Positions 7,089 to 54,011 of a stretch of 64,000 bases of DNA are shown piece by piece; position 1 is the first letter of the stretch; the number at the start of each line of letters is the position of its first letter. Under the pieces are notes generated by a model. It was not told where the DNA came from. It searched no databases and worked only from the letters and a program-made list of their open reading frames with translations. The stretch comes from a virus: positions 1 through 64,000 of the IMG/VR virus record IMGVR_UViG_3300027896_000033, one strand, 5' to 3'. Position numbers and translations under genes: made by a program.

Positions 7089-7369
7089 GTGTATATATAT
7101 TTGCTAAAAGTATTGAACACTTTAATAAATTATATCCTTTGTTTTATTTTTGCGAACCATTTATATTTGTTGCAAATATCGAAGATTTTAGTCATTATGA
7201 TAAAAATACCGATGCACTTGGATTCCATGAAGGGTATGAAGAGAATAAAGCCTACAATAAATCTTTAGTCGGTGCTCTATTAACTACAATTCATTTTGAT
7301 GGAGAATCGAATAAATTTATAACAAAAAAGTTTAATTACTTATACGAACATTATGAGCAAAACATATAG
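7085..7369 (+). CDS. Hypothetical protein, 94 aa
   Basis: Starts inside the ATGA overlap with the upstream gene and overlaps the next gene by 17 bases, so it is embedded in a tightly coupled operon. Aromatic-rich (FYFCEPFIFVANIEDFSHY). No family recognised. Confidence 0.7.
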   Translation: MSVYIFAKSIEHFNKLYPLFYFCEPFIFVANIEDFSHYDKNTDALGFHEGYEENKAYNKSLVGALLTTIHFDGESNKFITKKFNYLYEHYEQNI

Positions 7370-8237
7370 AAGATCTAAGAGTTTTTATGATTACGAGAGT
7401 GGTGTATGTGATAGATGCCAACAATTTTTAACTGATTGCGTTTGTAATGATATTGCTGCTTTAAATAAAGGTGGATTTAATTTAGAAGAGAGTGGTATAT
7501 GTGAAGAGTGTTTTCAATCTTTAGATAATTGCTTATGTAATCTGTATACTGATACTGAAGTCGATCACAATTACACCTATCCTGTACATTATGAAAAATT
7601 ACAAGGTAAATCTTTCGAATTTGAAAAGTATGATGATATAATCTATAAATATGGAGTAATTAGCAATCCTTTTGAGTATGACAGTTTCGAAGATTTAAAA
7701 AAGAAGATAACTTCGAATCACTATACAATCGAGCATGTATATACAGGGTCACACATATCAGTTATTGCCCCTCATGGAGGGTGTATCGAAGAAGGAACAA
7801 CTGAACTTGCAAAAATGATTGCAGAAACTGAGTATAATTTTTATTCGTTTGTCGGCATAGGTAGAGAAGAAACAGATTTACATATCACAAGTCATAAATT
7901 CAATGAACCGACATGTATTAAATTAGTCGAACAGTCACATACTGTAATATCAATACATGGGTGTCCAGGAATGGACGAGAAAATATATGTTGGTGGAAGA
8001 GATGCAAAATTAAAAAAGAAGGTAAGTAAAAAACTTTCACTTAAAGGTTTTAAAGTGTATACTGAAGGGCATATTTACCCTGGAACACATCCCGAAAACG
8101 TATGTAACTTAGGATTACGTAAAAAAGGATTACAGCTTGAATTTACTCAAGGTATTAGAAAAAATCAAGAGCATTTACGCACTATTTCAAAAGTAGTACA
8201 TCAAGTTTTAGGGTCTTCTATTCGAACCAGGGCCTGA
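7353..8237 (+). CDS. Poly-gamma-glutamate hydrolase family protein with duplicated N-terminal Cys knuckle
   Basis: Residues about 105-290 match the phage poly-gamma-glutamate hydrolase family (PghP type, zinc-dependent, carboxypeptidase-like fold): APHGG with H141, E146, LHITS with H177 and VISIHG with H202 are plausible metal or catalytic residues. Such enzymes cleave poly-gamma-glutamate capsule or related gamma-glutamyl polymers. The N-terminus is unusual: two copies, 31 residues apart, of C-x2-C-x6-C-x-C (C19/22/29/31 and C50/53/60/62), which look like zinc knuckles. No signal peptide is visible, so release would need lysis. It starts inside the upstream gene without a clear SD (coupled) and its last 30 bases overlap the convergent GNAT gene. 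Confidence 0.85.
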   Translation: MSKTYRRSKSFYDYESGVCDRCQQFLTDCVCNDIAALNKGGFNLEESGICEECFQSLDNCLCNLYTDTEVDHNYTYPVHYEKLQGKSFEFEKYDDIIYKYGVISNPFEYDSFEDLKKKITSNHYTIEHVYTGSHISVIAPHGGCIEEGTTELAKMIAETEYNFYSFVGIGREETDLHITSHKFNEPTCIKLVEQSHTVISIHGCPGMDEKIYVGGRDAKLKKKVSKKLSLKGFKVYTEGHIYPGTHPENVCNLGLRKKGLQLEFTQGIRKNQEHLRTISKVVHQVLGSSIRTRA

Positions 8238-9332
8238 ATAATCGCTACTAGGTATTAATGTTTTCACATAAATCGAAACATTTTTACCAGAAGGGCCCTT
8301 AACACTGCTTATTTCCTGAAAGCCTCTTGCTTTAGCTATTAATTTCATCTGTGGTGTTTTACTTGCAAACATTGCAGCTGATGAAGGTACCTGTGTTTCT
8401 ATATGTTGTAAAGTTTTTTGCCCAAACCCCATATGTCTGTATTCGCCCATGACTGTAAGGTGTTTTACTTCTGACATATACCAACCAACTTTATTTACTT
8501 CTCCTACTGCTACAGTAGTTTCACCACTTGAGGATTTAAGAGCATGAAATGTTGAAGTTTCGGGGAACTTATAAAGACCTTGTGCTCCATACTGTGTCTC
8601 AATGAAGGTTTTTGCTGTAGAAGAGTGTACTTCTTGAAATCTCCCAGTTCCTACAGCTGGTGATTCTGGTCTTCCTGTAGCTACATGATTAGTACTTTGT
8701 GTAGATAGAGAAGCATGTTCTGAACTTGGGTCCAATGTTTTTATATATGTTGCTAAGTTATCCCCTGAACTACCTCGTGCATTACTAACTTCATTATATC
8801 CATTAGTATCCATTACTCTTTTTATTTGAGGGAGTTTTGAAACTAGCATCGCAAGAGGTGATTCAGTTTTTGATTCTAAATAAGTTAAAAGACCTCTCCC
8901 CAATCCAACTCCTCGAGAACCATTACCAACAACAACATGGCGTATTTCTGAAGTGTGCCATGAGAATCTATTTATTTCACCAGCTGCCTTTATATTACCA
9001 TCAGATCCTGTAATACCAAAAAATTTAGTAGTACTAGGGTATGTAAAGCTCATAGGACTACCGTATTCGTGTTCTATGAAATTCTTTGCTTTTCGTACAT
9101 CCTCCGGAGATGTAAGTTCTTTGTAATTATGCCCAGGAGGAAGTGTTGGCAGTGTCATGATTCGAGTACTTGGTGGGGTAGGTGCTGCGCCATGCTGTCC
9201 ACCAGCTGGAGTGTCTCTATCAGCAACATGTACAGTTGCATTAACTACACTAGTGTCTCCTGAACCACTAGTTCTAACATAGTTAGTTTCTCGTGGAGTT
9301 AATGGATGCGCTGATCCTGGTCGACCCGGCAT
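8208..9332 (-). CDS. Tandem GNAT acetyltransferase-like protein
   Basis: Two GNAT-fold domains in one chain: about 68-200 and 232-360, each with the acetyl-CoA pyrophosphate-binding loop ([RQ]xxGxG type) at SRGVGLGRGLL (139-149) and YRHMGFGQK (298-306). The halves are recognisably similar (GEINRFSWHTSEIRHVVV against GEVNKVGWYMSEVKHLTV), so this is an internal duplication. The first 60 residues are a Pro/Thr/Gly-rich disordered tail. Substrate unknown; acylation of a protein, metabolite or cell-wall amine is possible. SD AAGG upstream. The 3' end overlaps the convergent hydrolase gene by 30 bases; the lysozyme gene lies just upstream on the same strand. Confidence 0.8.
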   Translation of the reverse strand: MPGRPGSAHPLTPRETNYVRTSGSGDTSVVNATVHVADRDTPAGGQHGAAPTPPSTRIMTLPTLPPGHNYKELTSPEDVRKAKNFIEHEYGSPMSFTYPSTTKFFGITGSDGNIKAAGEINRFSWHTSEIRHVVVGNGSRGVGLGRGLLTYLESKTESPLAMLVSKLPQIKRVMDTNGYNEVSNARGSSGDNLATYIKTLDPSSEHASLSTQSTNHVATGRPESPAVGTGRFQEVHSSTAKTFIETQYGAQGLYKFPETSTFHALKSSSGETTVAVGEVNKVGWYMSEVKHLTVMGEYRHMGFGQKTLQHIETQVPSSAAMFASKTPQMKLIAKARGFQEISSVKGPSGKNVSIYVKTLIPSSDYSGPGSNRRP

Positions 9333-12404: not shown

Positions 12405-13457
12405 CTATAAACTCTTTTCGAATTCAATAAGTAATTCTTTTTGTTTCTCAGTTAGGTTTGTAGGTGTTTCCACATGTAACTCAACAAGCATATCACCACG
12501 GTTAGCACTTCTTAGACTTTGAACACCCTCATTAGCTAATGTAAAAACAGTTTTATTTTGACTACCAGCAATAATTTCTAAATTTCGTCTACCATGAATA
12601 GTAAGTACTTCGATAGAACACCCTAATGCTGCTTTCACCATGGATACTGAAAGTTGATAAAGAATAGTATCTCCATTTCGTTTAAAAACTGGGTGCTCTT
12701 CTACATGGATAATTACATGCAAATCACCAGAAGGTCCACCGCTACGACTTCCTTCCCCTTCACTTTTTAAGCACATATGAACCCCGGTATCAACTCCAGG
12801 AGGGATTTTAATAGATAGTGTTTTACTTTTTTCAACAAGTCCTAACCCATGACAATCATTACATGGATCAGTAACAATTTTTCCTTCACCTTGACAGTGT
12901 GTGCAAGTTGAACTCATTTGGAAGAAACCTTGAGATTGAATAATCTGCCCTCTCCCACCACAACTCGGGCAATTAGTTTTTTGATATCCTGGGCGACAAC
13001 CTGTGCCTTCACAAGTCCCACAAGTATCATGCTTAGTAATTTGTATTTCTTTAGCTGTGCCATGCACAGCTTCCATAAAAGGAAGAACTAAATCGTAACG
13101 TAGATCATTTCCAGGAAGTGGCCCGTTGTTCCTAAAAGGTTGACCGTTAAATTCAAACCCAAAAGTACTGCCAAACATATCTTTGAAATGCGAAAACATA
13201 TCTTTGAAATTCTCGGGTCCACGATATCCACTATTTTTTAATCCATCATGACCGTATGTGTTGTATATCTGTCGCTTTTTATCGTCACTAAGAACTTCGT
13301 AAGCCTCAGTACATTCCTTAAAATTGTCTTCAGCTCCTTTATTATCAGGGTTACGATCTGGATGATACTGCATTGCTAATTTACGGTATGCTTTCTTAAT
13401 CTCGTTAATGTCTGCATTTCTATCTACTGCTAATATCTCGTAATAATCTCTTGTCAT
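12405..13457 (-). CDS. dnaJ: DnaJ (Hsp40) co-chaperone, full length
   Basis: 350 residues with all type I DnaJ parts in order: J domain (1-70) with H32-P33-D34; Gly/Phe-rich linker (about 76-120); zinc domain with four CxxC pairs (C146/149, C163/166, C185/188, C199/202) separated as in bacterial DnaJ; and C-terminal substrate-binding domains ending near TEKQKELL. It should stimulate the ATPase of the host DnaK and deliver clients to it; no DnaK or GrpE is present here. Phages more often encode only J-domain fragments, so the complete protein is notable. Its ATG overlaps the stop of the zinc-ribbon gene upstream (ATGA). Confidence 0.97.
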
Positions 13458-16884: not shown

Positions 16885-17451
16885 TTACTGCACATCGCTT
16901 TCCATTCGTGTGACAAACAAAGTAGATGCACCTGTGCTTGTAGGACTGATACTCATTCCTGCATAAAAACTATGTGTAGTAGCTGAAGTCAATGCAGTAC
17001 CAAGACTTAATGCAGCAGCTCTACCACCAGGAGTCGACCAAGTTGTATTTGTTAATGCAAAAGCTTGAAATGTTACATTAGCAGGAGGATTATTTACATT
17101 GGAACCATCATACGCATACAATCTTGTTCCAATAACTGCAATGCTTGTATCGGATGTAACAGTAATTCTAATACAATTTGCTTGTACAACAGATGTTAAT
17201 GCAACAGGAGAGCCACCTGAAATTGAGACTTGATTACTTGAAACATACTTTAAATTTGTAAGATGTGGAGCAGAGCATGCATCAGTATCATCAGAAGTCG
17301 ATGTTCTAATATGTGTCGCATCATTATAATTACCTACTTGGATAGGTGATCCGTACCCACCAGATCCATAAAAAGCAATGACATTTGTAGTACTTACTGT
17401 AAAATTCCAACCAGCTCCGTCATTGCCCTTCCAATCAAATGTAATGGCCAT
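16885..17451 (-). CDS. Putative virion surface protein
   Basis: 188 residues, beta-rich, Thr/Ser/Ala/Gly-rich, starting MAITFDWKGNDG. Strong SD (AGGAGG), its own late-type motif at 17504-17511 and its own terminator mark an abundant late protein such as a capsid decoration or tail component. No family recognised. Confidence 0.8.
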   Translation of the reverse strand: MAITFDWKGNDGAGWNFTVSTTNVIAFYGSGGYGSPIQVGNYNDATHIRTSTSDDTDACSAPHLTNLKYVSSNQVSISGGSPVALTSVVQANCIRITVTSDTSIAVIGTRLYAYDGSNVNNPPANVTFQAFALTNTTWSTPGGRAAALSLGTALTSATTHSFYAGMSISPTSTGASTLFVTRMESDVQ

Positions 17452-17503: not shown

Positions 17504-17511
17504 ATGTTTTA
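17504..17511 (-). promoter_or_regulatory. Late-type motif TAAAACAT for gene 16885-17451
   Basis: Sense reading CCTAAAACATACAATAGTATA, 53 bases before the ATG. A second copy in plus orientation lies at 17530-17537 with no plus-strand gene after it. Confidence 0.6.
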
Positions 17512-17529
17512 GGAAAGATATGTTAAAAG

Positions 17530-17537
17530 TAAAACAT
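17530..17537 (+). promoter_or_regulatory. Orphan late-type motif in plus orientation
   Basis: TAAAACAT facing into the 3' end of the minus-strand gene 17566-17778. It forms an inverted pair with 17504-17511; any transcript would be antisense. Confidence 0.35.
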
Positions 17538-24520: not shown

Positions 24521-24528
24521 ATGTTTTA
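24521..24528 (-). promoter_or_regulatory. Late-type motif TAAAACAT for the Kelch operon
   Basis: Sense reading TGATAAAACATCAATTATAA, 55 bases before the ATG at 24466; divergent from the copy at 24555-24562. Confidence 0.6.
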
Positions 24529-24554
24529 TCACTCGAAAGGAAAGCATGGAAAAG

Positions 24555-24562
24555 TAAAACAT
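24555..24562 (+). promoter_or_regulatory. Late-type motif TAAAACAT for the Cas4-like nuclease
   Basis: Sense reading AAGTAAAACATTTATACAAAG, 45 bases before the ATG at 24607. Confidence 0.55.
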
Positions 24563-24606: not shown

Positions 24607-25446
24607 ATGGATGTGTCTTACTCACAGTTACGAAATATAACCTGCCCTATTAGGCACTATTTCACATTAACAAAAAATAAAAGTTCTGAATTATTTAGAC
24701 CTGCTACTTTAGGGCATCTCGTCCATAGAATTTATGCAAAAGCATTTAAGAATAGAAATTTTAAATTTGTCACACCTGATTTTGTACAGAAAGAATTAAT
24801 TAATATTAGTGGGGCTAATATTAATATGTACAACCTAGTTACTGAACATATTCATGAAAGTGTATTAAAAAAATTCCCAAAAAAATTAGAAATTGAAGCG
24901 CAACATACTGTGGTAACTGATAAATTACCACATATCGATTCAGAAGTTGTTATATACAACAAACCAGATATATCATACATACAGAAAAATGTTGCTACAG
25001 TATGTGAGATAAAAACTGGAGGGTATAAGAAGTTCGATCCGTTGCAGCTACAATATTATGCTTGGGGATTATCACTTAAAAATAATACAATAGATCATTT
25101 CGTGACTAAAGTCTTTTATACTGCAACAAACAATATAGATGTTATTAATTTATTTACTAGGGATGAACTTCAAACAGCTATTGATAGATATTTGTATAGC
25201 TCATGTAAAGCATACGATTTTTTGGGTATAAAAAGTAGTAAAGAAGTAGCTTCGGTACTTCCATTTCTAATAGCCACAAATTCAGAGAAATTAACGGGTC
25301 TTTTTAACATTATCCATCCAGAACAATGTGCTTCTTGTAATTCATCAATAATATGCCCTGCATATTTACAAGAAGTGACTAAAACATTTGAAAAAAAGAT
25401 GTCTAATCTAACTAGTAGTGATATAATGATTCAAGTAAATGTGTAA
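24607..25446 (+). CDS. Cas4/RecB-type PD-(D/E)XK nuclease with Fe-S cysteines
   Basis: 279 residues. RecB-family motifs in order: SYSQLRNITCPIRHYF with C13; GHLVH (36-40); D121 in KPDI; E134-x-K136 in VCEIKTG; and Q147-x3-Y151. A C-terminal C241-x2-C244-x5-C250, with C13, forms the four-Cys pattern that holds a 4Fe-4S cluster in Cas4 and AddB. Expected activity: single-strand DNA exonuclease or end processing. No cas genes or CRISPR array are nearby, so a recombination or DNA-processing role is more likely. SD is weak. It carries a late-type motif and lies just ahead of the sigma-like gene. Confidence 0.85.
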   Translation: MDVSYSQLRNITCPIRHYFTLTKNKSSELFRPATLGHLVHRIYAKAFKNRNFKFVTPDFVQKELINISGANINMYNLVTEHIHESVLKKFPKKLEIEAQHTVVTDKLPHIDSEVVIYNKPDISYIQKNVATVCEIKTGGYKKFDPLQLQYYAWGLSLKNNTIDHFVTKVFYTATNNIDVINLFTRDELQTAIDRYLYSSCKAYDFLGIKSSKEVASVLPFLIATNSEKLTGLFNIIHPEQCASCNSSIICPAYLQEVTKTFEKKMSNLTSSDIMIQVNV

Positions 25447-25538: not shown

Positions 25539-26609
25539 ATGTTGCTATCATTAGAACTCGAAATACCATGCGGCGATCAAAGAAATATTCATTTACAGTT
25601 AGTAAATAATAAACGAAGATTAAAAAGAGGATGTAAAAAGAAAAAAACAAGTACAAAACCCCTTATTGATAGAGCAATGCACATATTCAATAATGGTAGT
25701 CTTAATGATTATACCCATCCAAAAGAAGTTGACCCTTATTGGGATACACTTTATCGACAATACGAAGCTCTTGTTTATATCGAACTACTTTACAAAAATA
25801 ATGTAAAAAAGTGTGAAGTTATATTAGATAATAACAATATTCGTTCTATTCTTTATGATCTAGAAAGAATTAAACAGCAGAAAAAAATACTTCTACATTA
25901 CTTAATGAATTTTATGAACATTATGTACGGTTCAGTAATTCAGAGAAGATTTTATGGGTGGAAATATTACATAGAAGATTTTGTTAGTAAATTTAACGAA
26001 GTAGCTATCGTAAATTTAACAAAATTAAGATTTGATGTTGATCAAACAAGATGCTCAGTTTATTTTTATCAGGCTTTCTGGTTATCAGGATTATCAATAA
26101 TCAATAAAATATCTGACGATTTAAAAAGAAACGAAAGTGATAGTGCTAAAAGCAGCAAACATAATTTCGATTCAGAAGACGACTTTGATACATTGTATGA
26201 TATGTATGGTTCAGATGCTATTGATACTTTTAACACTATTGATAGTAATAATACTATAGCAGCTATAGTGGAGGAGGTAGTTGATCCTAATATTGAAGTT
26301 ATTGTTATTCACAATTCTATAGTTGAAGAGAAATTGGAAGAAGTGACAGAAATTGTAGCAGTTGATAGGTATGTAAATATGGGAGTTGCAGAAATTGTAG
26401 AGGATGTTGATTTTAATATCTTCTGCACTCTTAAAAAATTATTGTATCAATTAGGTATAAACCATACTTCAATACATACATTTTCAGATAAGAAAATTTC
26501 AAAACTAGGTAGGATTATACGTAAAAAAATAACAAATGGTGAACTAGTGCTAAATAACACAGATAAGCAATCACTCGTTATGCTGTTTTCATCGCCACTG
26601 TTGAATTAG
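25539..26609 (+). CDS. Putative T4 gp55-like late sigma factor
   Basis: 356 residues. Residues about 115-197 look like sigma region 2 as found in gp55-type phage late sigma factors: a helical block ending QRRFYGWKYYIEDFVSKF, then a segment placed like the conserved D..F..Y.TQ..W region (RCSVYFYQAFWLSGLSIINK) and a basic helix. The N-terminus is Lys/Arg-rich, the middle (200-300) acidic and probably disordered, and the C-terminus has a basic Lys/Ile helix that could contact clamp or polymerase. SD AAGGAG and a sigma70-type promoter precede it. The similarity was judged by eye and is moderate; a generic DNA-binding protein is the alternative. Confidence 0.45.
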   Translation: MLLSLELEIPCGDQRNIHLQLVNNKRRLKRGCKKKKTSTKPLIDRAMHIFNNGSLNDYTHPKEVDPYWDTLYRQYEALVYIELLYKNNVKKCEVILDNNNIRSILYDLERIKQQKKILLHYLMNFMNIMYGSVIQRRFYGWKYYIEDFVSKFNEVAIVNLTKLRFDVDQTRCSVYFYQAFWLSGLSIINKISDDLKRNESDSAKSSKHNFDSEDDFDTLYDMYGSDAIDTFNTIDSNNTIAAIVEEVVDPNIEVIVIHNSIVEEKLEEVTEIVAVDRYVNMGVAEIVEDVDFNIFCTLKKLLYQLGINHTSIHTFSDKKISKLGRIIRKKITNGELVLNNTDKQSLVMLFSSPLLN

Positions 26610-27163
26610 ATAAATGTTTTCTGTGCTACAGTAGCGTTTACAGTAGCACAGATCGCATCATCAGTGGCATTTAGTACACGTTGTATTAAATCATCAATAT
26701 TTATAAAACCTGCATTAAAAAACATTTCACCTAACATCTGGACCTGTTCAGGTATAAGTACATACCCAAACAGTAGATGAGGATGAATAACTGAGTGTTG
26801 CATTAGAAATAAAAATGCAGCTTGATTCATATCATTTAATGTTGCATTATTAGGGCTTTCGAGTATCTGTTGAAATTTCCTTCCTGCAAATGCATAATGT
26901 AACTCATTAGTTTTCCCATATAAATAAGCGAGACTATCATGGTACCCTTGATTATCGCCTATCCATTCAGTATGAGATTTCCAAAAATCTCTAACAATTT
27001 CATAAGGGTTTTGGTATACACATTTAACATCAGCACCATAAGAATCACACAGTACAAACAGCATGTTAGGTGTAAATTCCTTAACCATTACTGAATCTAT
27101 ATAACTATCAAGATGGCTAAGATCATTAAGTATATTTGTACTTTCAATAGTAGTATTAGACAT
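26606..27163 (-). CDS. Hypothetical protein, last gene of the amidoligase operon
   Basis: About 185 residues from the ATG at 27163, chosen because AAGGGA lies 9 bases upstream; an in-frame ATG at 27181 lacks an SD. Mostly helical, soluble, acidic. It overlaps the upstream gene by 8 bases and, at its 3' end, the convergent sigma-like gene by 4 bases. No family recognised. Confidence 0.75.
   Translation of the reverse strand: MSNTTIESTNILNDLSHLDSYIDSVMVKEFTPNMLFVLCDSYGADVKCVYQNPYEIVRDFWKSHTEWIGDNQGYHDSLAYLYGKTNELHYAFAGRKFQQILESPNNATLNDMNQAAFLFLMQHSVIHPHLLFGYVLIPEQVQMLGEMFFNAGFINIDDLIQRVLNATDDAICATVNATVAQKTFI
26620..26652. other. 10-bp inverted repeat at a convergent gene end
   Basis: TCTGTGCTAC (26620-26629) pairs perfectly with 26643-26652 across a 13-base loop, just inside the end of the minus gene and 11 bases past the stop of the plus gene. 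No T-run on either side; it could still shield 3' ends of the plus-strand mRNA. Confidence 0.45.
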
Positions 27164-27569
27164 TTGTAATTGTCCCTTCATATTTAGTAAAATACTTTAA
27201 CATTTCTGGGTATTCAAAAGGAGTAAATGCATGCCCATGTTTATTTTGATATTCTTGAATCATTCTGTGTCTTATTGTACTCCAATTTTCTGGGGTCATC
27301 TCATATTGATAAGGAAATAATTTAGTAGTTAAACGTTTTAATAATTCTGGTGATTTTAATGTTGCTTTTAATTTCTTTTTTATAATTTTAGGATTTAATT
27401 TTAATACATCTGGTGTTAAAATATAATCATTAAACCACGCAACAAAATCGAATGTTAATCCCAACTCAAAAGAAGTAAAAAATATATCAAATACTGATAT
27501 TGGATTCTTATCAAATTTTTCTTTATCTATGGACAGTATAGCACTTTCATTTATAAATACAAGGATCAT
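27156..27569 (-). CDS. Hypothetical protein, 137 aa
   Basis: Starts directly after the stop of the amidoligase-like gene (TAAATG), with GGAG upstream, so translation is coupled. Contains aromatic/acidic segments (FDIFFTSFELGLTFDFVAWF) followed by a basic Lys/Leu helix. Not a membrane protein by pattern. No family recognised. Confidence 0.75.
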   Translation of the reverse strand: MILVFINESAILSIDKEKFDKNPISVFDIFFTSFELGLTFDFVAWFNDYILTPDVLKLNPKIIKKKLKATLKSPELLKRLTTKLFPYQYEMTPENWSTIRHRMIQEYQNKHGHAFTPFEYPEMLKYFTKYEGTITNV

Positions 27570-28994
27570 TTACGTCTCCAAACATTTTTTGTTTATTTGT
27601 TTAGCAATTCCTTTAGATAAAGGATCATGTATTCCTAATATGTCCATTGTATTATCAAACCACTCATTCATTGCATCATGGGCAGGATTTTGAGGATCAT
27701 GTAAAGCACCTAAAACCGAGGGTCCTCCTGAATTACGTCCTCCTATAGTCATACTATAACTTGGTAGAATATTATGCAAACGTTGTGTTCCACCCATATG
27801 CTCAACGTAGTGATCTACATCACTACTAATTTTATTAGCTATTACAACTTGGTTTGCAATAAATCCTATATCAAAAACACCTCCATGGAATCTTGTTTCA
27901 AGTCTCTGAGTACCTGCCTGTATTCTAAAATCAGCTCTACCCTCATCATACTCACTTGAAAGACCTAAATGTGCTGTTGATTGCCAACGTGTTTTATTTT
28001 TTGCTAAAATATCAAGCATTAAACCCATATGATTTAAATAATTAGAAGCAGTTTTTTGTATATCGTATGAGTTACCTGATCCAGGTTGTAAACATCCTAA
28101 AGTTGTACTTACATGTACTCCATATTTGGGCCCAAGAATTCTATCAGAATCTTTTATTGCTTTTTGAGCATCTAATGCAGCAAATGATAAATGGGTCGCA
28201 TATAATAAATTAGTCATAGGCGCTGCACCAATAACTATTTCCCTAGTAGCAATACCACCAGGTAATGAACAATCAGAACATGTTCTAGTTGAATATGAAC
28301 CTCCAGCAGTATGTGTAAGAAGATTTCTTGGATCAATGCCAAACAATCGTCTTGATGGTTCTGCTATCATGGTTTCAAAAGTCTGTCCGTTTGCACCAGG
28401 ACCATTACCTCTATCTTTTTGAACATAGGCTGTTTCGTATTCTAAAGAATTAAATGTTGAATCTTTTAAAGCATGATTAGGTAAAAATAAACCATTTTTT
28501 GAATTTAAAGGAAGTATTCCTCCGATCTTCATTAATTCCTGTAATACACTTTTATGTAAAGGGACATTACTAATATTATTAACTGTAAAGTTATCTAAAT
28601 TAAGCCCATTAGAAAAAGCAGCTTTATTTATTTTAGGAATTTCAGATTTGAAACCTGACATGTTAATAGGATGAATTTGATTAGTTAGTAATGATTTACT
28701 TGATAAATGTTGAGTAGCAGGTTCAAATGTGGAAATTTCAATTTTATTGTCATTACCTATGTGTGTTATTACAGGCATTGAAGTAATACCTGCAGGAATC
28801 TTAAAATCTTTTCCAGAAACTGTGTTTATAGTATGTATAGAGGTTCTTTGAGACACATTAGGATGAGATGTATGATTTGACTCATAAATATTTTTCATAA
28901 TTGAAGCACTCAAACGAACTTCAGAATGAGCAGGATTTATATCCTTTAGTATCTTTTTACTATACTCAGTATATGCATTAATATCAATAGTCAT
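27570..28994 (-). CDS. Amidoligase-like protein (474 aa)
   Basis: Residues about 180-470 show the motif order of the GCS/glutamine-synthetase-fold amidoligases (Amidoligase_2 type): LEYET (about 185), a second Glu strand ATREIVIGA (about 250), YGVHVSTT at the HxHV position (about 295) and RLETRFHGG at the vEFR position (about 368). These enzymes use ATP to form amide bonds between carboxylates and amines on peptides or metabolites. The N-terminal 180 residues are non-conserved. The ATG at 28994 is preceded by AGAGAT and overlaps the upstream gene by 11 bases. The assignment is by motif pattern, and the first His of HxH is kept while the second is Ser. Confidence 0.6.
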   Translation of the reverse strand: MTIDINAYTEYSKKILKDINPAHSEVRLSASIMKNIYESNHTSHPNVSQRTSIHTINTVSGKDFKIPAGITSMPVITHIGNDNKIEISTFEPATQHLSSKSLLTNQIHPINMSGFKSEIPKINKAAFSNGLNLDNFTVNNISNVPLHKSVLQELMKIGGILPLNSKNGLFLPNHALKDSTFNSLEYETAYVQKDRGNGPGANGQTFETMIAEPSRRLFGIDPRNLLTHTAGGSYSTRTCSDCSLPGGIATREIVIGAAPMTNLLYATHLSFAALDAQKAIKDSDRILGPKYGVHVSTTLGCLQPGSGNSYDIQKTASNYLNHMGLMLDILAKNKTRWQSTAHLGLSSEYDEGRADFRIQAGTQRLETRFHGGVFDIGFIANQVVIANKISSDVDHYVEHMGGTQRLHNILPSYSMTIGGRNSGGPSVLGALHDPQNPAHDAMNEWFDNTMDILGIHDPLSKGIAKQINKKCLET

Positions 28995-31900
28995 ATGTAT
29001 CTCTATGTTTACAACGTCTGTAATAATCAAAAGCAAAATTTTGAGAAGTAGCATCTTTGATACCGAGGCATGACCCAAGTATCTCGTTGAAAGTGCCTTT
29101 TGTCCTTTCATTCCATCCATTAGTAGGAGGTATAAGTGTATCAGTTAAAGCTACATTACCCGTATCACCACTAGATGCACCCTGTACTAAATCAGACATT
29201 ATTTTTGTTGCGAACGCTAATTGTGCTACTGGGTGTGCTCCACCTGGAATATATTGTGCATGTCTCATCTCTAGTACGCCATGTGTCTGTACTTTGTGTA
29301 ATCCTCCAGTTGTATATTTTGCTAATTTTTGTAATCCAGATGTTTCTATATGTCCTGATTGATTAGATAAATTACTTAAATCCCCCCAAAAAGAGCCATT
29401 TTCTCGATAAAATGAGTACATATTTGTTTCAACACCATTATTGTGTTCTGCTCCCACTATACGTTCTTGACTCATATTCTGAGACCAACATTGCCCTGAA
29501 TTTGCAGCATGTGTTCTTGCACCTGATGAAAGAGATTCTGGTTGGATAGCCGCACCATACAAATAATCACTTGTACTACCTTGAAGAGTATAACCATAAC
29601 GTTCAGGAGATGATGTAGTGCTTTTAATTACGTTTTCAAATAAACGAAAATAATCAGCTCCAAATTTTAAAACATCTTGTCTACCACTTTCAGGTACTGC
29701 ACCGACATTAATGTGTATCCCAGGAGGATCATTAGGCCCTCTTGTCGCACCGTAATTTCCACCTTCAGCACGTCCTCCTAAATCACGTAATGCTTCACCG
29801 ATATGATATAGAGCTTTTACACCTCTAATCCCTTGCATTTTAGCAGTCACATATTCGGTACCATCACCATGTAGAGATGGCTCGTCATCTTTATGTAGTG
29901 ATCCTTCAAAACCCATTTTGTTTATATCATATCCATATTTATCTTTTATGTGAGAGGCTATTTCAGTAGCACTTTTAAAAACTCCTGGGGTTTCAAATTC
30001 GGCACCAAAAGTATGGTTAAGGTTTGTAAAAGAAGGTGCAAATATAGCTTTATTCTGAGCAACAGGAATAACATACCCATTACCTAATGCTTCTCTCATA
30101 GATAAACTAGTATTCATTAATTGCATATGTTCTGGATTAAGATCCATTTCTGGAGTAGGGGAATCTGCAACATTGAATGAATTCGTAGGATAGTTATGGC
30201 TAGTATATGAAGCATTTTCTCCTCCATCACTTATAGGTGATAATGATACAGTACGTCCACGCTGTACTACACTTGTTGGAGGGGCTGTTTTATTAATCTG
30301 ATGTTGGACCATGTCATCTACCATCCATTTATATGTACCATCCGCATTCTTACCTACTAAAGCACCTCCAAAAGATAGCATTTTTTTAGTTTCAGGAGTC
30401 ATATTGTTATGATCAACATCCATAATTCTATATTCGTTTGCTGGTACCGATCCATGTCCTATATTTTGATAAAATTTACGATCATCTGCAAGTCCAGCAC
30501 TTGCATCCAATCTTTCCCTCATTGCACCTAATGCTTCGATAGTTCTTGAAGTAGCTGTTAAGTTACCAGGAGTTGCAGGTGTTACCGAACCTCCACCCGT
30601 AGAATATCGTTGCTCAAATGTTTTAAAGGTAGAATCAGGCATTACTTCTATCATACCGGGATTAGTATATGTACTTGTTCTTGTTGGAGCAGGTGTTGTG
30701 TCTGTGTTGTTGTAAGCATTAACAACAGTGGTGCCATATCGCCCTGAACCGATACTTTCTAACATTGCTGAGACATCAGTTATGTGAGGAGTGGGTGGAT
30801 TTTCTGTAATGCTACTTGTTGTATGTGCTGTATTATTATTTAATGCGTCTTGTACATTGGATCCCGGTGTAGTTAAAATACGTAAAGGATCAAAAGGCGC
30901 TGCCCCTGTTGAACGTGTACCTGCTATAGAACTGTTAGGGTTAACCTCAACACCAGCTTGTTGTGCATTAAAAATTTCCCCATCATCATCTACAGAATTC
31001 CAATTAGGTTCGGATGTAGAGGTTGTTGAAGCTGCTTGATGAGTTTCTGGAGGTGTTGTTTGTACTGATGGAGTGGTAGCTGCCGGAGCAGGGGTTACAG
31101 GGGCTGTTGTAGGTGTTGGTGAAACTGGATTTGTAGAAGATACAGGAGTTAGCCTAGGGGTGCTTGTATTAAAAATAGTATTGTCATAAGCACCTGAAAC
31201 TATTGCACTAAGCCCTGGATTTGTAGCAGTTAAATGATTTAAATATTGATCCACATTATTATTTGAAAATCCAAATGAGTTTATGTCACCTGGTCTCGGT
31301 GTGTTTCCAGTGCCTTGACTGCTATGTATATTAGCATATTGATTATCCATTGCAGAATTGTATGTCCGCATAGCTAATTGGTAAATACCTTGATCGCTCC
31401 TTGCTATACCAAATGTATCTTTTAATGTTCCAATGGAGGGAGTAATTTTGCGTTCTAAACTAGATACAGTATATGAATTATGTACACCTTGTATAGTTTC
31501 TCTAATAAAACCAAAGTCATATCCATGATTAGTGCCGTACATACTCATCAATCCAGTAAAACTGGAAAGATACGCCATGCCTTTTTCCGCATTATCCTGA
31601 AAAGGTGCTTCTCCTTCATGTCCTGGAGTTGCATTTTTTACAAATGGCTTAATTTTATCATTAATTGCAGTTATGTTTTCTAAATATCCTTTCCCTATGC
31701 TATTTTGTAAAAGGAGACCTTTTAAAGAATTATGTTTCTCTATTGCTGTATTTCCTACAAGCTTCATGTCACTGTGTTCTGGAAACATTAAACTATGCAG
31801 AGTAGCAGTATTTAATGCATGAGTAGCTAATCCACTATTTGATCCAGGAGTGATTTTTGTGACTACATGATATGCATGTTCCTCAGCTCCATATCTAGTA

Positions 31901-32157
31901 CCTTGGAGACCATGTGTTGGAACGCCTGAAAGCACTGATGCTGCTCTAGCTAAACTTCTTTGTGCTGATGGAGTGCTTATTAATACATTTGATAGTGTAA
32001 TATCTCTACTAGGATAAAGTGAAGTAACATAATAATCACCAATTGTTTGATGAATACCTCTTTCTTCAATTAAAGGTACAATATGATCACTAGACGAAGC
32101 TCCAGGAGTAGCTGATGCTGCTGAAGACATTCTTTTGAATCTACTATAAAAACTCAT
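28984..32157 (-). CDS. Large amidoligase-domain protein (1057 aa)
   Basis: C-terminal region (about 700-1000) carries amidoligase motifs in order: TFGAEFETPG (about 712), HGDGTEYVTAKMQG (about 769), PPGIHINVGAV at the HxHV position (about 814) and GVLEMRHAQYIPGG at the vEFR position (about 960). Residues about 335-520 are a Pro/Thr/Ser-rich linker; the N-terminal 330 residues are helical and unassigned. SD AAAGGTG. First gene of a late-type operon, behind the motif at 32202-32209. The size, linker and late promoter suggest a virion or assembly-associated enzyme acting on a peptide or polymer, but the substrate is unknown. Confidence 0.6.
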   Translation of the reverse strand: MSFYSRFKRMSSAASATPGASSSDHIVPLIEERGIHQTIGDYYVTSLYPSRDITLSNVLISTPSAQRSLARAASVLSGVPTHGLQGTRYGAEEHAYHVVTKITPGSNSGLATHALNTATLHSLMFPEHSDMKLVGNTAIEKHNSLKGLLLQNSIGKGYLENITAINDKIKPFVKNATPGHEGEAPFQDNAEKGMAYLSSFTGLMSMYGTNHGYDFGFIRETIQGVHNSYTVSSLERKITPSIGTLKDTFGIARSDQGIYQLAMRTYNSAMDNQYANIHSSQGTGNTPRPGDINSFGFSNNNVDQYLNHLTATNPGLSAIVSGAYDNTIFNTSTPRLTPVSSTNPVSPTPTTAPVTPAPAATTPSVQTTPPETHQAASTTSTSEPNWNSVDDDGEIFNAQQAGVEVNPNSSIAGTRSTGAAPFDPLRILTTPGSNVQDALNNNTAHTTSSITENPPTPHITDVSAMLESIGSGRYGTTVVNAYNNTDTTPAPTRTSTYTNPGMIEVMPDSTFKTFEQRYSTGGGSVTPATPGNLTATSRTIEALGAMRERLDASAGLADDRKFYQNIGHGSVPANEYRIMDVDHNNMTPETKKMLSFGGALVGKNADGTYKWMVDDMVQHQINKTAPPTSVVQRGRTVSLSPISDGGENASYTSHNYPTNSFNVADSPTPEMDLNPEHMQLMNTSLSMREALGNGYVIPVAQNKAIFAPSFTNLNHTFGAEFETPGVFKSATEIASHIKDKYGYDINKMGFEGSLHKDDEPSLHGDGTEYVTAKMQGIRGVKALYHIGEALRDLGGRAEGGNYGATRGPNDPPGIHINVGAVPESGRQDVLKFGADYFRLFENVIKSTTSSPERYGYTLQGSTSDYLYGAAIQPESLSSGARTHAANSGQCWSQNMSQERIVGAEHNNGVETNMYSFYRENGSFWGDLSNLSNQSGHIETSGLQKLAKYTTGGLHKVQTHGVLEMRHAQYIPGGAHPVAQLAFATKIMSDLVQGASSGDTGNVALTDTLIPPTNGWNERTKGTFNEILGSCLGIKDATSQNFAFDYYRRCKHRDTYDY

Positions 32158-32171
32158 ACTTCACCTTTTAT

Positions 32172-32211
32172 CTTAAAACATCATATAACGCATATTATAT
32201 GATGTTTTAAG
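32172..32211. repeat. 17-bp perfect inverted repeat containing two late-type motifs
   Basis: CTTAAAACATCATATAA (32172-32188) and its exact complement (32195-32211), 6-base spacer. Each arm contains TAAAACAT (plus copy 32174-32181, minus copy 32202-32209). Only the minus copy faces a gene start (32157). Confidence 0.8.
32202..32209 (-). promoter_or_regulatory. Late-type motif TAAAACAT for the amidoligase operon
   Basis: Sense reading CCTTAAAACATCATATAATA, 45 bases before the ATG at 32157, inside a 17-bp inverted repeat. Confidence 0.6.
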
Positions 32212-32253: not shown

Positions 32254-33081
32254 TTATTGTACTAAATCAGTAAATTCATTTAATAAACGTTTTCGATAAC
32301 CTAATATATTATTAATAGTATGTGTACTGAATGTTTTCGCTTCAATTTGTTCCGCTAATGCGATGAGTAAAGCAGATACCGGTGCTGATAATCCTTTACT
32401 TGTTAATTTTGTCATTTTTCGTTTATCTGCATTTTTGCTAAAGATATTAGCAGGGTTTTCAAATTCAATCTCGACTATTTTTTTAATAACTGCATAATCG
32501 GAATGCCTCATTAGTAATTCGTAAATAAAAGCACCTAATTTTGACAATCCAGGATGTTTAGCATTAGTATGTGTTCCTAAATCATCAAACATTTTTTTAT
32601 CTTTTTCATTAATATCAAGTAGTAATGATTGAGGTGCTTTAATTTGCCAGGTAGAAGGAATACTGATTTTACAAACTGTCATTTTACTATTCCAAGAACT
32701 TGCAAAAACACGCCCTACTCTTTCTAATTCTATTATAATGTTTTCATTAAATAGATGTTTTCTTATCTCAGTTCGATCTTCATTAATTAATGCTACATTC
32801 GCATGTAGAGTGTCTTTGAGTGCAGGAGCACTCAAAATTGAGTTAGGCATGACTGTGTCAGTACTATGATGAGTAAATTTTATTTTTTCTTTTATATACG
32901 CAACTACTTCTTCTTCTGGTCTGGATAGAGTCTCTTCTGACAAAGGAATACCAATTCTAATAAAATTACTCCTGATTTTCATAAAATCAGCAAGTTCAGC
33001 TGGGACAAGTTTATAAATATTTTTATAATAATGTTTCATTTTCGAAACTATCGCATTAATATCTGCTTCTGTATATGTCAT
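32254..33081 (-). CDS. Hypothetical protein, 275 aa
   Basis: Soluble, helix-rich, Lys-rich protein with no recognised motif; SD AAAGGA. Unlike its neighbours it has no TAAAACAT motif upstream but a candidate sigma70-type promoter (33139-33167), so it may be expressed earlier. Lies head-to-tail with the amidoligase operon. Confidence 0.75.
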   Translation of the reverse strand: MTYTEADINAIVSKMKHYYKNIYKLVPAELADFMKIRSNFIRIGIPLSEETLSRPEEEVVAYIKEKIKFTHHSTDTVMPNSILSAPALKDTLHANVALINEDRTEIRKHLFNENIIIELERVGRVFASSWNSKMTVCKISIPSTWQIKAPQSLLLDINEKDKKMFDDLGTHTNAKHPGLSKLGAFIYELLMRHSDYAVIKKIVEIEFENPANIFSKNADKRKMTKLTSKGLSAPVSALLIALAEQIEAKTFSTHTINNILGYRKRLLNEFTDLVQ

Positions 33082-33167: not shown

Positions 33168-33190
33168 TATGTAAAATGTATTAAAATAAA

Positions 33191-33224
33191 AAAGTGGTAT
33201 ATATCGTTAGACATATACCACTTT
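33191..33224 (-). terminator. Intrinsic terminator of the 33935 unit / structured RNA
   Basis: 12-bp perfect stem (AAAGTGGTATAT, 33191-33202, with 33213-33224), 10-base loop; in minus orientation followed by T6. It ends transcripts coming from 33935 through the structured region. Confidence 0.85.
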
Positions 33225-33232
33225 AATTCTAA

Positions 33233-33366
33233 AATCGGATGCAATTGACAACCAACACGGGTTATCTTTTTGGGCGTTCTGCCTTTTTACCTTTAGTTCA
33301 ACCGTAACGTATCACTCTAGGTACATCGCCCCTTCTGCGTTGTTTTTCAACTGGTATATCCGATCT
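33233..33366 (-). ncRNA. Candidate structured RNA with cloverleaf-like fold
   Basis: A gene-free stretch of clearly higher GC than its surroundings. Hand folding of the minus strand gives an outer 7-bp stem ATCGGAT/ATCCGAT (33358-33364 with 33234-33240), a 5' hairpin GTTG-A5-CAAC, a central arm GGGCG/CGCCC (33331-33327 with 33286-33282) enclosing ACCT/AGGT, and a 3' hairpin AACC/GGTT. It lies between the stop at 33393 and the terminator at 33191-33224, so it could be a 3' UTR-derived RNA of the upstream virion gene. It matches no tRNA, tmRNA, riboswitch or self-cleaving ribozyme I know. Strand is inferred from the terminator. Confidence 0.45.
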
Positions 33367-33392
33367 AATTTTTACACAATAAATAAACATAA

Positions 33393-43356: not shown

Positions 43357-43364
43357 ATGTTTTA
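43357..43364 (-). promoter_or_regulatory. Late-type motif TAAAACAT for the giant adhesin
   Basis: Sense reading GGATAAAACATTCAATACAA, 51 bases before the ATG at 43306. Confidence 0.6.
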
Positions 43365-43377
43365 TCCCTCTCAGAAA

Positions 43378-43385
43378 TAAAACAT
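43378..43385 (+). promoter_or_regulatory. Late-type motif TAAAACAT for 43428-46054
   Basis: Sense reading AAATAAAACATTACAAAACAG, 43 bases before the ATG at 43428; divergent partner of 43357-43364. Confidence 0.6.
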
Positions 43386-52107: not shown

Positions 52108-52115
52108 ATGTTTTA
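52108..52115 (-). promoter_or_regulatory. Late-type motif TAAAACAT for 52060-49960
   Basis: Sense reading ACAATAAAACATACAGTAAA, 48 bases before the ATG at 52060. With 52134-52141 it makes an 11-bp perfect inverted repeat (TGTTTTATTGT, 52109-52119). Confidence 0.6.
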
Positions 52116-52133
52116 TTGTATTCATACAAACAA

Positions 52134-52141
52134 TAAAACAT
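52134..52141 (+). promoter_or_regulatory. Late-type motif TAAAACAT for the portal unit
   Basis: Sense reading ACAATAAAACATCATTTATA, 44 bases before the ATG at 52185. Confidence 0.65.
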
Positions 52142-52184: not shown

Positions 52185-54011
52185 ATGTTTGATTTTTTAA
52201 AGAGAAAAAAGACTAACGATGAAGTTGGAGTAGGTTTTGATTCCGACAAATTTGTTCAGTCGTTAATGAAGACAGGCCTTAACGAGAATGTCGCAACAAC
52301 ACTTGCTGAAGAAGTAAATGACTCGATAAAAAACCAAGTAGTTGAAAAAACTACTCAAACATATGACGCTTTCATGAATGCTGTATCGACTAATATTGAA
52401 GGTTTATCAATATTACCTACAGAAAGAATTCAAGCATGTCGAGAATTAAAAAGTTTCCTATCTGAGAATCCTGAAGTTAATAACTCAATTGGGTTATATG
52501 CCTCATATATTGCATACGGTGCAGCTGAAACAACATTAGAAGAATACAAAGTTACAATTTTAGGTAGTGATGCCAAATCTATTAAAGCAGCTACACAATT
52601 TATTAAAAAATGGGAAAAGAAATCAAAAATTAAACGTACTATTTTTAGATTAGCTAAAGATTTAATTCCTTTTGGCGATGCTTTTTTAGAGAAACTATAT
52701 GTAAAAATGCCTGATGGTAAAAAGAACTTTTCAGGTGTCGCATATATTCCTACTCATACAATGTACCCTAAATTAAATAATAAAGGGTATTCTACTAAAT
52801 ATTATCAAATAATCGATTCAAAAGATGACAAATTTGCTGACGCAGACGCTTTAGGTATTGCATCGCTAGTTAAAGAAGGCATCGTTGTAGAATTTGAACC
52901 AAAAGAAATTATACATTTTAATGATGGATCAGCTGTCGGAGTAACTGATACACCTTATTTTAACTTAATTATTTTATGGCGTTACTTAAAAATGTTGGAA
53001 GAGTCTCTAGTCATTCACAAAATGACTCGTGCTCGACGTTTTATTATTTTTATGCTTGATGTCACTGGTAAAACTAAAGGTGAAGTACGTTCAGCTATTA
53101 CTAATTTTACGCAAAGTGTAAAATCAGTTTTTAAAATGAATGTTAAACAAGGTAGTATAACCAGTAATAAATCAACTGTCCCATCATCTTCAGATTTAGT
53201 TATACCAGTCACTAAAGATTCAGCAACAAAAATACAAAATATACCATCTGATCCTTCAGCTACCAATGTTGATGATTTAAGTTTTTACTTAAATAGAATT
53301 ACAACTAACATGTTTACATCACATGTTTTTTCACATGCAAAATCAACAGGTAATGAAAAATATATTGAAAAATCATTCATGCGATTAGTTAAAATATACC
53401 AACGTCAAATGGAATATGAGTTGGAAGATGTGTATAATGAATTACTTATAAGTAATAATTTTATTAATTTAGACGTTAAAATTCAATTCCCTTCTCCTGA
53501 TGCTGATCAAGAGGTGCGTATAGTAGATAGTATTGTACGACGTATGATGATAGTAAATCAACTGACCGCAACAATTGGTGTTACACCTCCTATTCAATGG
53601 ATAGTTGATTACGTATTTAAAGACTTAGCACAATATGAGATTGAAGAATTAATTGCAATGCTTAATCAAGCTATTGACGAACAAACAAAAAATCAACAGA
53701 GTGATGAATATCCTGATGTGTTTAATGAAAATCAAGGTACTTCTAACAATAGTACGAATTCTGCAAATGCCAACAACACTTCTTCTAATTCAAATAATGA
53801 TGCATCTTTGAGAGACCAAAGTAGTGTGCAGCAAAATGGTCAGAAAAAAACAACAGAATCACAATCAGATATGTATGGTATGTTTGATGTGCTTGCGAAT
53901 GAGCACATACAAAGAGTAACTGAACAGACAGTAGCTAACCCAGAACGTATGGCAGCATCGATCAAATTAGCTCTAGATTATCTAAAAATGAATAATTTTA
54001 AAAATGAATAA
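52185..54011 (+). CDS. Portal protein, T4 gp20-like
   Basis: 608 residues, close to the usual length of T4-type portals. The central stretch (VIHKMTRARRFIIFMLDVTG ... KGEVRSAITNFTQSVKSVFK, then DLVIPVTKD ... IQNIPSDPSATNVDDLSFYLN) corresponds to the gp20 portal core with its conserved basic R-A-R-R and DxxG. The last 110 residues are Asn/Ser/Gln-rich and disordered. As a dodecamer it should form the DNA entry/exit channel at one capsid vertex. No terminase or major capsid gene is in the window. SD AAAGGA; late-type motif 44 bases upstream. Confidence 0.9.
   Translation: MFDFLKRKKTNDEVGVGFDSDKFVQSLMKTGLNENVATTLAEEVNDSIKNQVVEKTTQTYDAFMNAVSTNIEGLSILPTERIQACRELKSFLSENPEVNNSIGLYASYIAYGAAETTLEEYKVTILGSDAKSIKAATQFIKKWEKKSKIKRTIFRLAKDLIPFGDAFLEKLYVKMPDGKKNFSGVAYIPTHTMYPKLNNKGYSTKYYQIIDSKDDKFADADALGIASLVKEGIVVEFEPKEIIHFNDGSAVGVTDTPYFNLIILWRYLKMLEESLVIHKMTRARRFIIFMLDVTGKTKGEVRSAITNFTQSVKSVFKMNVKQGSITSNKSTVPSSSDLVIPVTKDSATKIQNIPSDPSATNVDDLSFYLNRITTNMFTSHVFSHAKSTGNEKYIEKSFMRLVKIYQRQMEYELEDVYNELLISNNFINLDVKIQFPSPDADQEVRIVDSIVRRMMIVNQLTATIGVTPPIQWIVDYVFKDLAQYEIEELIAMLNQAIDEQTKNQQSDEYPDVFNENQGTSNNSTNSANANNTSSNSNNDASLRDQSSVQQNGQKKTTESQSDMYGMFDVLANEHIQRVTEQTVANPERMAASIKLALDYLKMNNFKNE

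Follow-up and report, generated by a model that had tools for sequence, protein, structure and literature searches.

We propose that two adjacent genes of a tailed phage, here called A and B, encode very divergent enzymes that are probably amidoligases of the glutamine-synthetase/GCS type, and that they belong to an ATP-dependent amidoligase module, probably a late one, a reading to which we give a probability of about 0.72. The window, the whole stretch of 64,000 nucleotides that was analysed, is tailed phage DNA and comes from a virus record of 67,350 bp. It encodes a T4-type portal (52185-54011), an SNF2 helicase, a DEAD-box helicase and a primase, and the phage is large, poorly known and very distant from all members of the phage collection. 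A complete DnaJ-type protein is also encoded in this phage, at 12405-13457, with a J domain, CXXCXGXG and C-terminal domains.

Single-sequence searches of Pfam, PHROGs, PDB sequences, 50,697 phages and IMG/VR gave no match for A or B. Only an alignment of the DEAD-box helicase gave access to relatives. It led to 21 loci; of the records behind these, 19 were searched with A and B, and two, of 273,563 bp (G012) and 155,702 bp (G003), proved to encode orthologues of both proteins. Later scans of viral contigs with A, B and a 188-aa protein of the window returned G003 and G012 again and no others, and two scans of bacterial and archaeal genomes gave no A or B orthologues. The comparison set for the genes described below is the window's record, G003 and G012, three genomes in all. 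Together with two small genes, X and Y, genes A and B make up a four-gene module kept in both related contigs (156 and 274 kb), in the order A-B-X-Y in the window and G012 and A-X-Y-B in G003. The module and its neighbour are as follows:

28984-32157, minus strand: gene A, 1057 aa, with a variable N-terminal part, a low-complexity linker and a conserved C-terminal part
27570-28994, minus strand: gene B, 474 aa, by profile alignment a paralogue of A's ligase region
27156-27569, minus strand: gene X, 137 aa, abutting B and accompanying A and B in each relative
26606-27181, minus strand: gene Y, 191 aa, overlapping X by 26 bp and likewise kept with A and B in G003 and G012
32254-33081, minus strand: 275-aa gene, preceding A in both the window and G012

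The two adjacent, overlapping reading frames that the earlier note had described are real, and both lie on the minus strand. The mechanical ORF start of B, at 29120, falls inside A and is too early; the start is at 28994 (MTIDINA..., where the G003 orthologue opens MTIDYND), so that the overlap between A and B amounts to 11 bp. X and Y match no family, and a match to the X profile in G016 was set aside as a lysine-rich ORF with endonuclease-like repeats. Because the 275-aa gene sits about 31 kb from A in G003, we regard it as a neighbour and not as part of the module. None of the T4 hub proteins gp26, gp51 and gp28 hit the PHROGs that are hit by the module's neighbours. Between the 275-aa gene and a 180-aa gene, on the minus strand, lies a non-coding stretch (33190-33392) with a folding energy of -57.4 kcal/mol (z=-4.6 versus shuffles); it is closed by an ATCGGAT/ATCCGAT pairing, includes a terminator hairpin of 15 bp, has no Rfam match at gathering score and is possibly an undescribed structured RNA.

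The conserved C-terminal part of A begins at about residue 504 and holds the amidoligase-like domain, which is preceded by two more variable regions:

31156-32157, minus strand: N-terminal region of A, residues 1-334, recognisable in G012 from residue 70 and not in G003
30658-31155, minus strand: Pro/Thr/Ser-rich linker of A, residues 335-500
29008-30156, minus strand: amidoligase-like domain of A, residues 668-1050

In this virus the Pro/Thr linker to which the earlier note drew attention does exist (16% T and 9% P over residues 300-600). Its counterpart in G003 is Glu/Arg-rich, and the composition of the linker is therefore not conserved. The ligase domain of A is 38-41% identical to its G003 and G012 orthologues and B is 34% identical to its own; across the orthologue pairs of the two proteins, identity spans 30-41% and the catalytic residues are unchanged.

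In both A and B the ExE...E...HxN/S...ExR motifs occur in the order that marks glutamine-synthetase/GCS-type amidoligases:

29992-30000, minus strand: A motif 1, E720-x-E722
29854-29856, minus strand: A motif 2, E768 (GTEYVT)
29707-29715, minus strand: A motif 3, H815-x-N817
29263-29319, minus strand: A motif 4, K947-Y948 to E963-x-R965, with the spacing of KY...G..E.R in LUZ24 gp18
28434-28442, minus strand: B motif 1, E185-x-E187
28239-28241, minus strand: B motif 2, E252
28107-28115, minus strand: B motif 3, H294-x-S296
27891-27899, minus strand: B motif 4, E366-x-R368

The catalytic set of A, including K947-Y948, is invariant across the three orthologues, among which just 25% of A positions are invariant; the catalytic set of B is likewise invariant, against just 19% of B positions. 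By eye, the A series also matches that of E. coli GshA, E27-x-E29, E67, H150-Y-N and E328-x-R330 (in the strings GLERET, LLEFITP, SGVHYNFS and YIEVRS), residues that bind metal and ATP in GshA. Overall similarity of A or B to GshA and YbdK is not detectable, and known phage amidoligases show none to these single sequences either.

Profile comparison points in the same direction for A. Aligned by hhalign with a profile of eight annotated phage Amidoligase_2 proteins, the A domain scores 36.1 (P=5.8e-4) with motifs 1-3 in register, above the maximum of 29.9 among 150 column shuffles. The A and B profiles align with each other at a score of 50.8 (P=4.9e-6; shuffle maximum 25.2) with motifs 1-3 matched, and on this evidence the two proteins are paralogues. 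For B itself, direct profile comparison with known amidoligases shows no similarity; it is tied to Amidoligase_2 by its own motifs and otherwise only through A. A combined A+B profile matches phage amidoligases less well (P=0.006) than the A profile does. When 360 ORFs of the three phages were ranked blind with the known-amidoligase profile, the A proteins took ranks 1, 3 and 9, with matches that run through motifs 2 and 4 and with weak individual E-values. A B protein at rank 4 was not counted, as its match lies outside the motifs, and for this reason a 4-of-6 hypergeometric P is not used. An ordered-motif expression, which is loose and was tuned partly on A and B, matches all six A and B proteins and four of the eight known phage amidoligases (that of Bjorn only if read from an upstream start), no other ORF in a 347-ORF set (at least 250 aa) and 9 of 120,000 shuffles. 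A seeming third amidoligase in G003 (130968-133487) was rejected as a chance match. The amidoligase-like motif order reported in the earlier note is upheld by the ordered motifs, their conservation and the in-register alignment of A; the second His of the HxH motif is N in A and S in B.

Family models do not reach these proteins. Neither A nor B is scored by any Pfam or PHROG model, even relaxed, and the Amidoligase_2 (PF12224) profile search suggested by the earlier note leaves both below the 22-bit gathering cut-off, a threshold that LUZ24 gp18, a recognised member, passes with just 24 bits. For COOH-NH2_lig (PF14395) there is no Pfam score or profile-profile similarity. AlphaFold2 models built from three-row alignments have a pLDDT of 34-37, and Foldseek returned no significant match for them; the best for B, an insignificant one from such a low-pLDDT model, was the McsB kinase (E=0.8), which shares its fold class with glutamine synthetase. 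With no family model scoring, pLDDT at this level and no usable fold match, we can only infer the glutamine-synthetase/GCS fold of A and B, and their catalysis likewise.

The setting of the module suggests when it may be expressed. The commonest intergenic 8-mer, TAAAACAT, lies upstream of the module in all three phages (intergenic meaning between predicted genes). Of the 20 copies that the window contains, 15 are intergenic (binomial P=6e-15, an optimistic value, since it was in the window that the motif was chosen), and G003 and G012 provide independent tests, with 25 of 35 (binomial P=2e-18) and 16 of 33 (binomial P=6e-8). Sites with a downstream gene are mostly about 25-60 nt from the gene start. 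The element precedes A by 44 nt in the window and by 38 nt in G003; in G012 it precedes a 180-aa gene upstream of the module, as read in the sequence, where an ORF masks it. Five window sites form inverted repeats, one of them directly upstream of A:

32174-32209, no strand: inverted repeat TAAAACAT...ATGTTTTA, with a minus-strand TAAAACAT copy 44 nt upstream of A
17504-17537, 24521-24562, 43357-43385 and 52108-52141: other intergenic TAAAACAT sites, often inverted repeats

Further copies in the window stand before the portal gene, before the genes for proteins of 180, 188, 1797 and 3097 aa, and before other genes. There is no enrichment of the T4 late motif TATAAATA. We regard TAAAACAT as a promoter-like signal common to the lineage, and from its place before the portal gene we infer that it may be a late promoter; late expression of the module is most likely on the same ground. 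It is probably also what the earlier note had called a virion-type promoter, a reading that these findings support. A copy at the PD-(D/E)XK nuclease gene (24607-25446) indicates that the regulon extends beyond virion genes. The 188-aa protein (16885-17451), which has no family assignment, shows 71-74% identity to its counterparts in G012 and G003, a much higher conservation than that of the rest; its gene has TAAAACAT upstream in the window and in G003.

We propose that A, B, X and Y would be expressed from a single compact operon controlled by the TAAAACAT element of the phage itself, and that A and B would work with the two small proteins as one module. By analogy with the family, A and B would phosphorylate a carboxylate at the expense of ATP, with Mg2+, and an amine would then attack the resulting acyl phosphate to give an amide or isopeptide bond. 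GATase_6 and RimK are undetected in the window's record, G003 and G012 (positive controls worked; the records may be incomplete); with neither partner detected, the substrate is most likely a protein or peptide, either a late or virion protein of the phage or a host envelope peptide, and not an ammonia-fed metabolite. That the substrate is a virion protein we suggest only tentatively. The more specific proposal, in which a late four-gene system of two amidoligases with X and Y ligates amino acids onto the phage's own virion proteins or cross-links them, using ATP-driven isopeptide chemistry during particle assembly, we judge rather unlikely.

The module could instead modify the host envelope (peptidoglycan side chains, surface peptides), for example blocking superinfection, which we judge somewhat unlikely. 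This is the published proposal for the amidoligase cassettes of phiEco32, LUZ24 and PSA-HP1, podophage cassettes thought to alter peptidoglycan side chains against superinfection (PMC5498523; PMC10580990). The podophage locus has more than one amidoligase, as here (PMC5498523), and LUZ24-type phages likewise have two, a PF14395 and a PF12224 gene. The pairing of two amidoligases in one phage operon accordingly has a precedent, although in LUZ24-type phages the two lie one gene apart, a setting unlike that of A-B, and are accompanied by GATase_6 and RimK. The phage Amidoligase_2 proteins (PF12224: LUZ24 gp18, RIO-1, O18-011) share motif order and character with A and B, and their D-x-S-L..G.E.V and KY...G..E.R blocks align with A, whereas the phiEco32-like COOH-NH2 ligase type 2 (PF14395, LUZ24 gp16), the second of the LUZ24 pair, has HxH and ExR motifs and no profile similarity to A and B apart from the His motif. 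In contrast to the phage Amidoligase_2 proteins, A and B fall below every model, A has a long N-terminal part, and the detected partners are X and Y, with a control element shared with the portal gene. The absence of GATase_6 and RimK from what was detected in these possibly incomplete records weighs against an envelope role and makes a LUZ24-type cassette unlikely. The expression context also differs: the portal-shared element suggests late expression, whereas the LUZ24 amidoligases stand among forward-strand replication-side genes.

It is improbable that A and B are dead enzymes, virion components that keep an enzyme-like fold for a structural role. The promoter-like element in common with the portal gene and the long variable N-terminus and low-complexity linker of A would fit such a role, but every catalytic position is invariant in both proteins, against 19-25% of positions overall. 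We find it equally doubtful that A and B are not amidoligases at all and that the motif series arose by chance or convergence, as the missing curated family match and confident structure might suggest; against this, the profile alignment is in register and beyond shuffles, and the motif series is absent from all other background ORFs. Very improbable is the link drawn in the earlier note to the window's poly-gamma-glutamate hydrolase and tandem GNAT, acting with A-B on a gamma-glutamyl polymer: both genes are present in the window, yet at a distance of about 20 kb, and the two relatives in which A-B-X-Y is kept gave no detectable match to either. The hydrolase gene (7353-8237; PF05908, E=2e-50) adjoins the tandem GNAT gene (8208-9332).

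Amidoligases are already known in phages, even two per phage operon. The novelty lies in how far A and B have diverged, in their forming a pair of paralogues, in the long N-terminal part that A carries, in the constant company of X and Y, and in a control element shared with the portal gene. The known phage amidoligases have glutamine amidotransferase and ATP-grasp genes as cassette partners, and their proposed target is the cell wall; a pair that is retained together with X and Y and has an element in common with the portal gene would point elsewhere, possibly to the virion. A-B-X-Y offers one defined, testable module, and A and B show that amidoligase-like enzymes can diverge beyond the reach of current family models.
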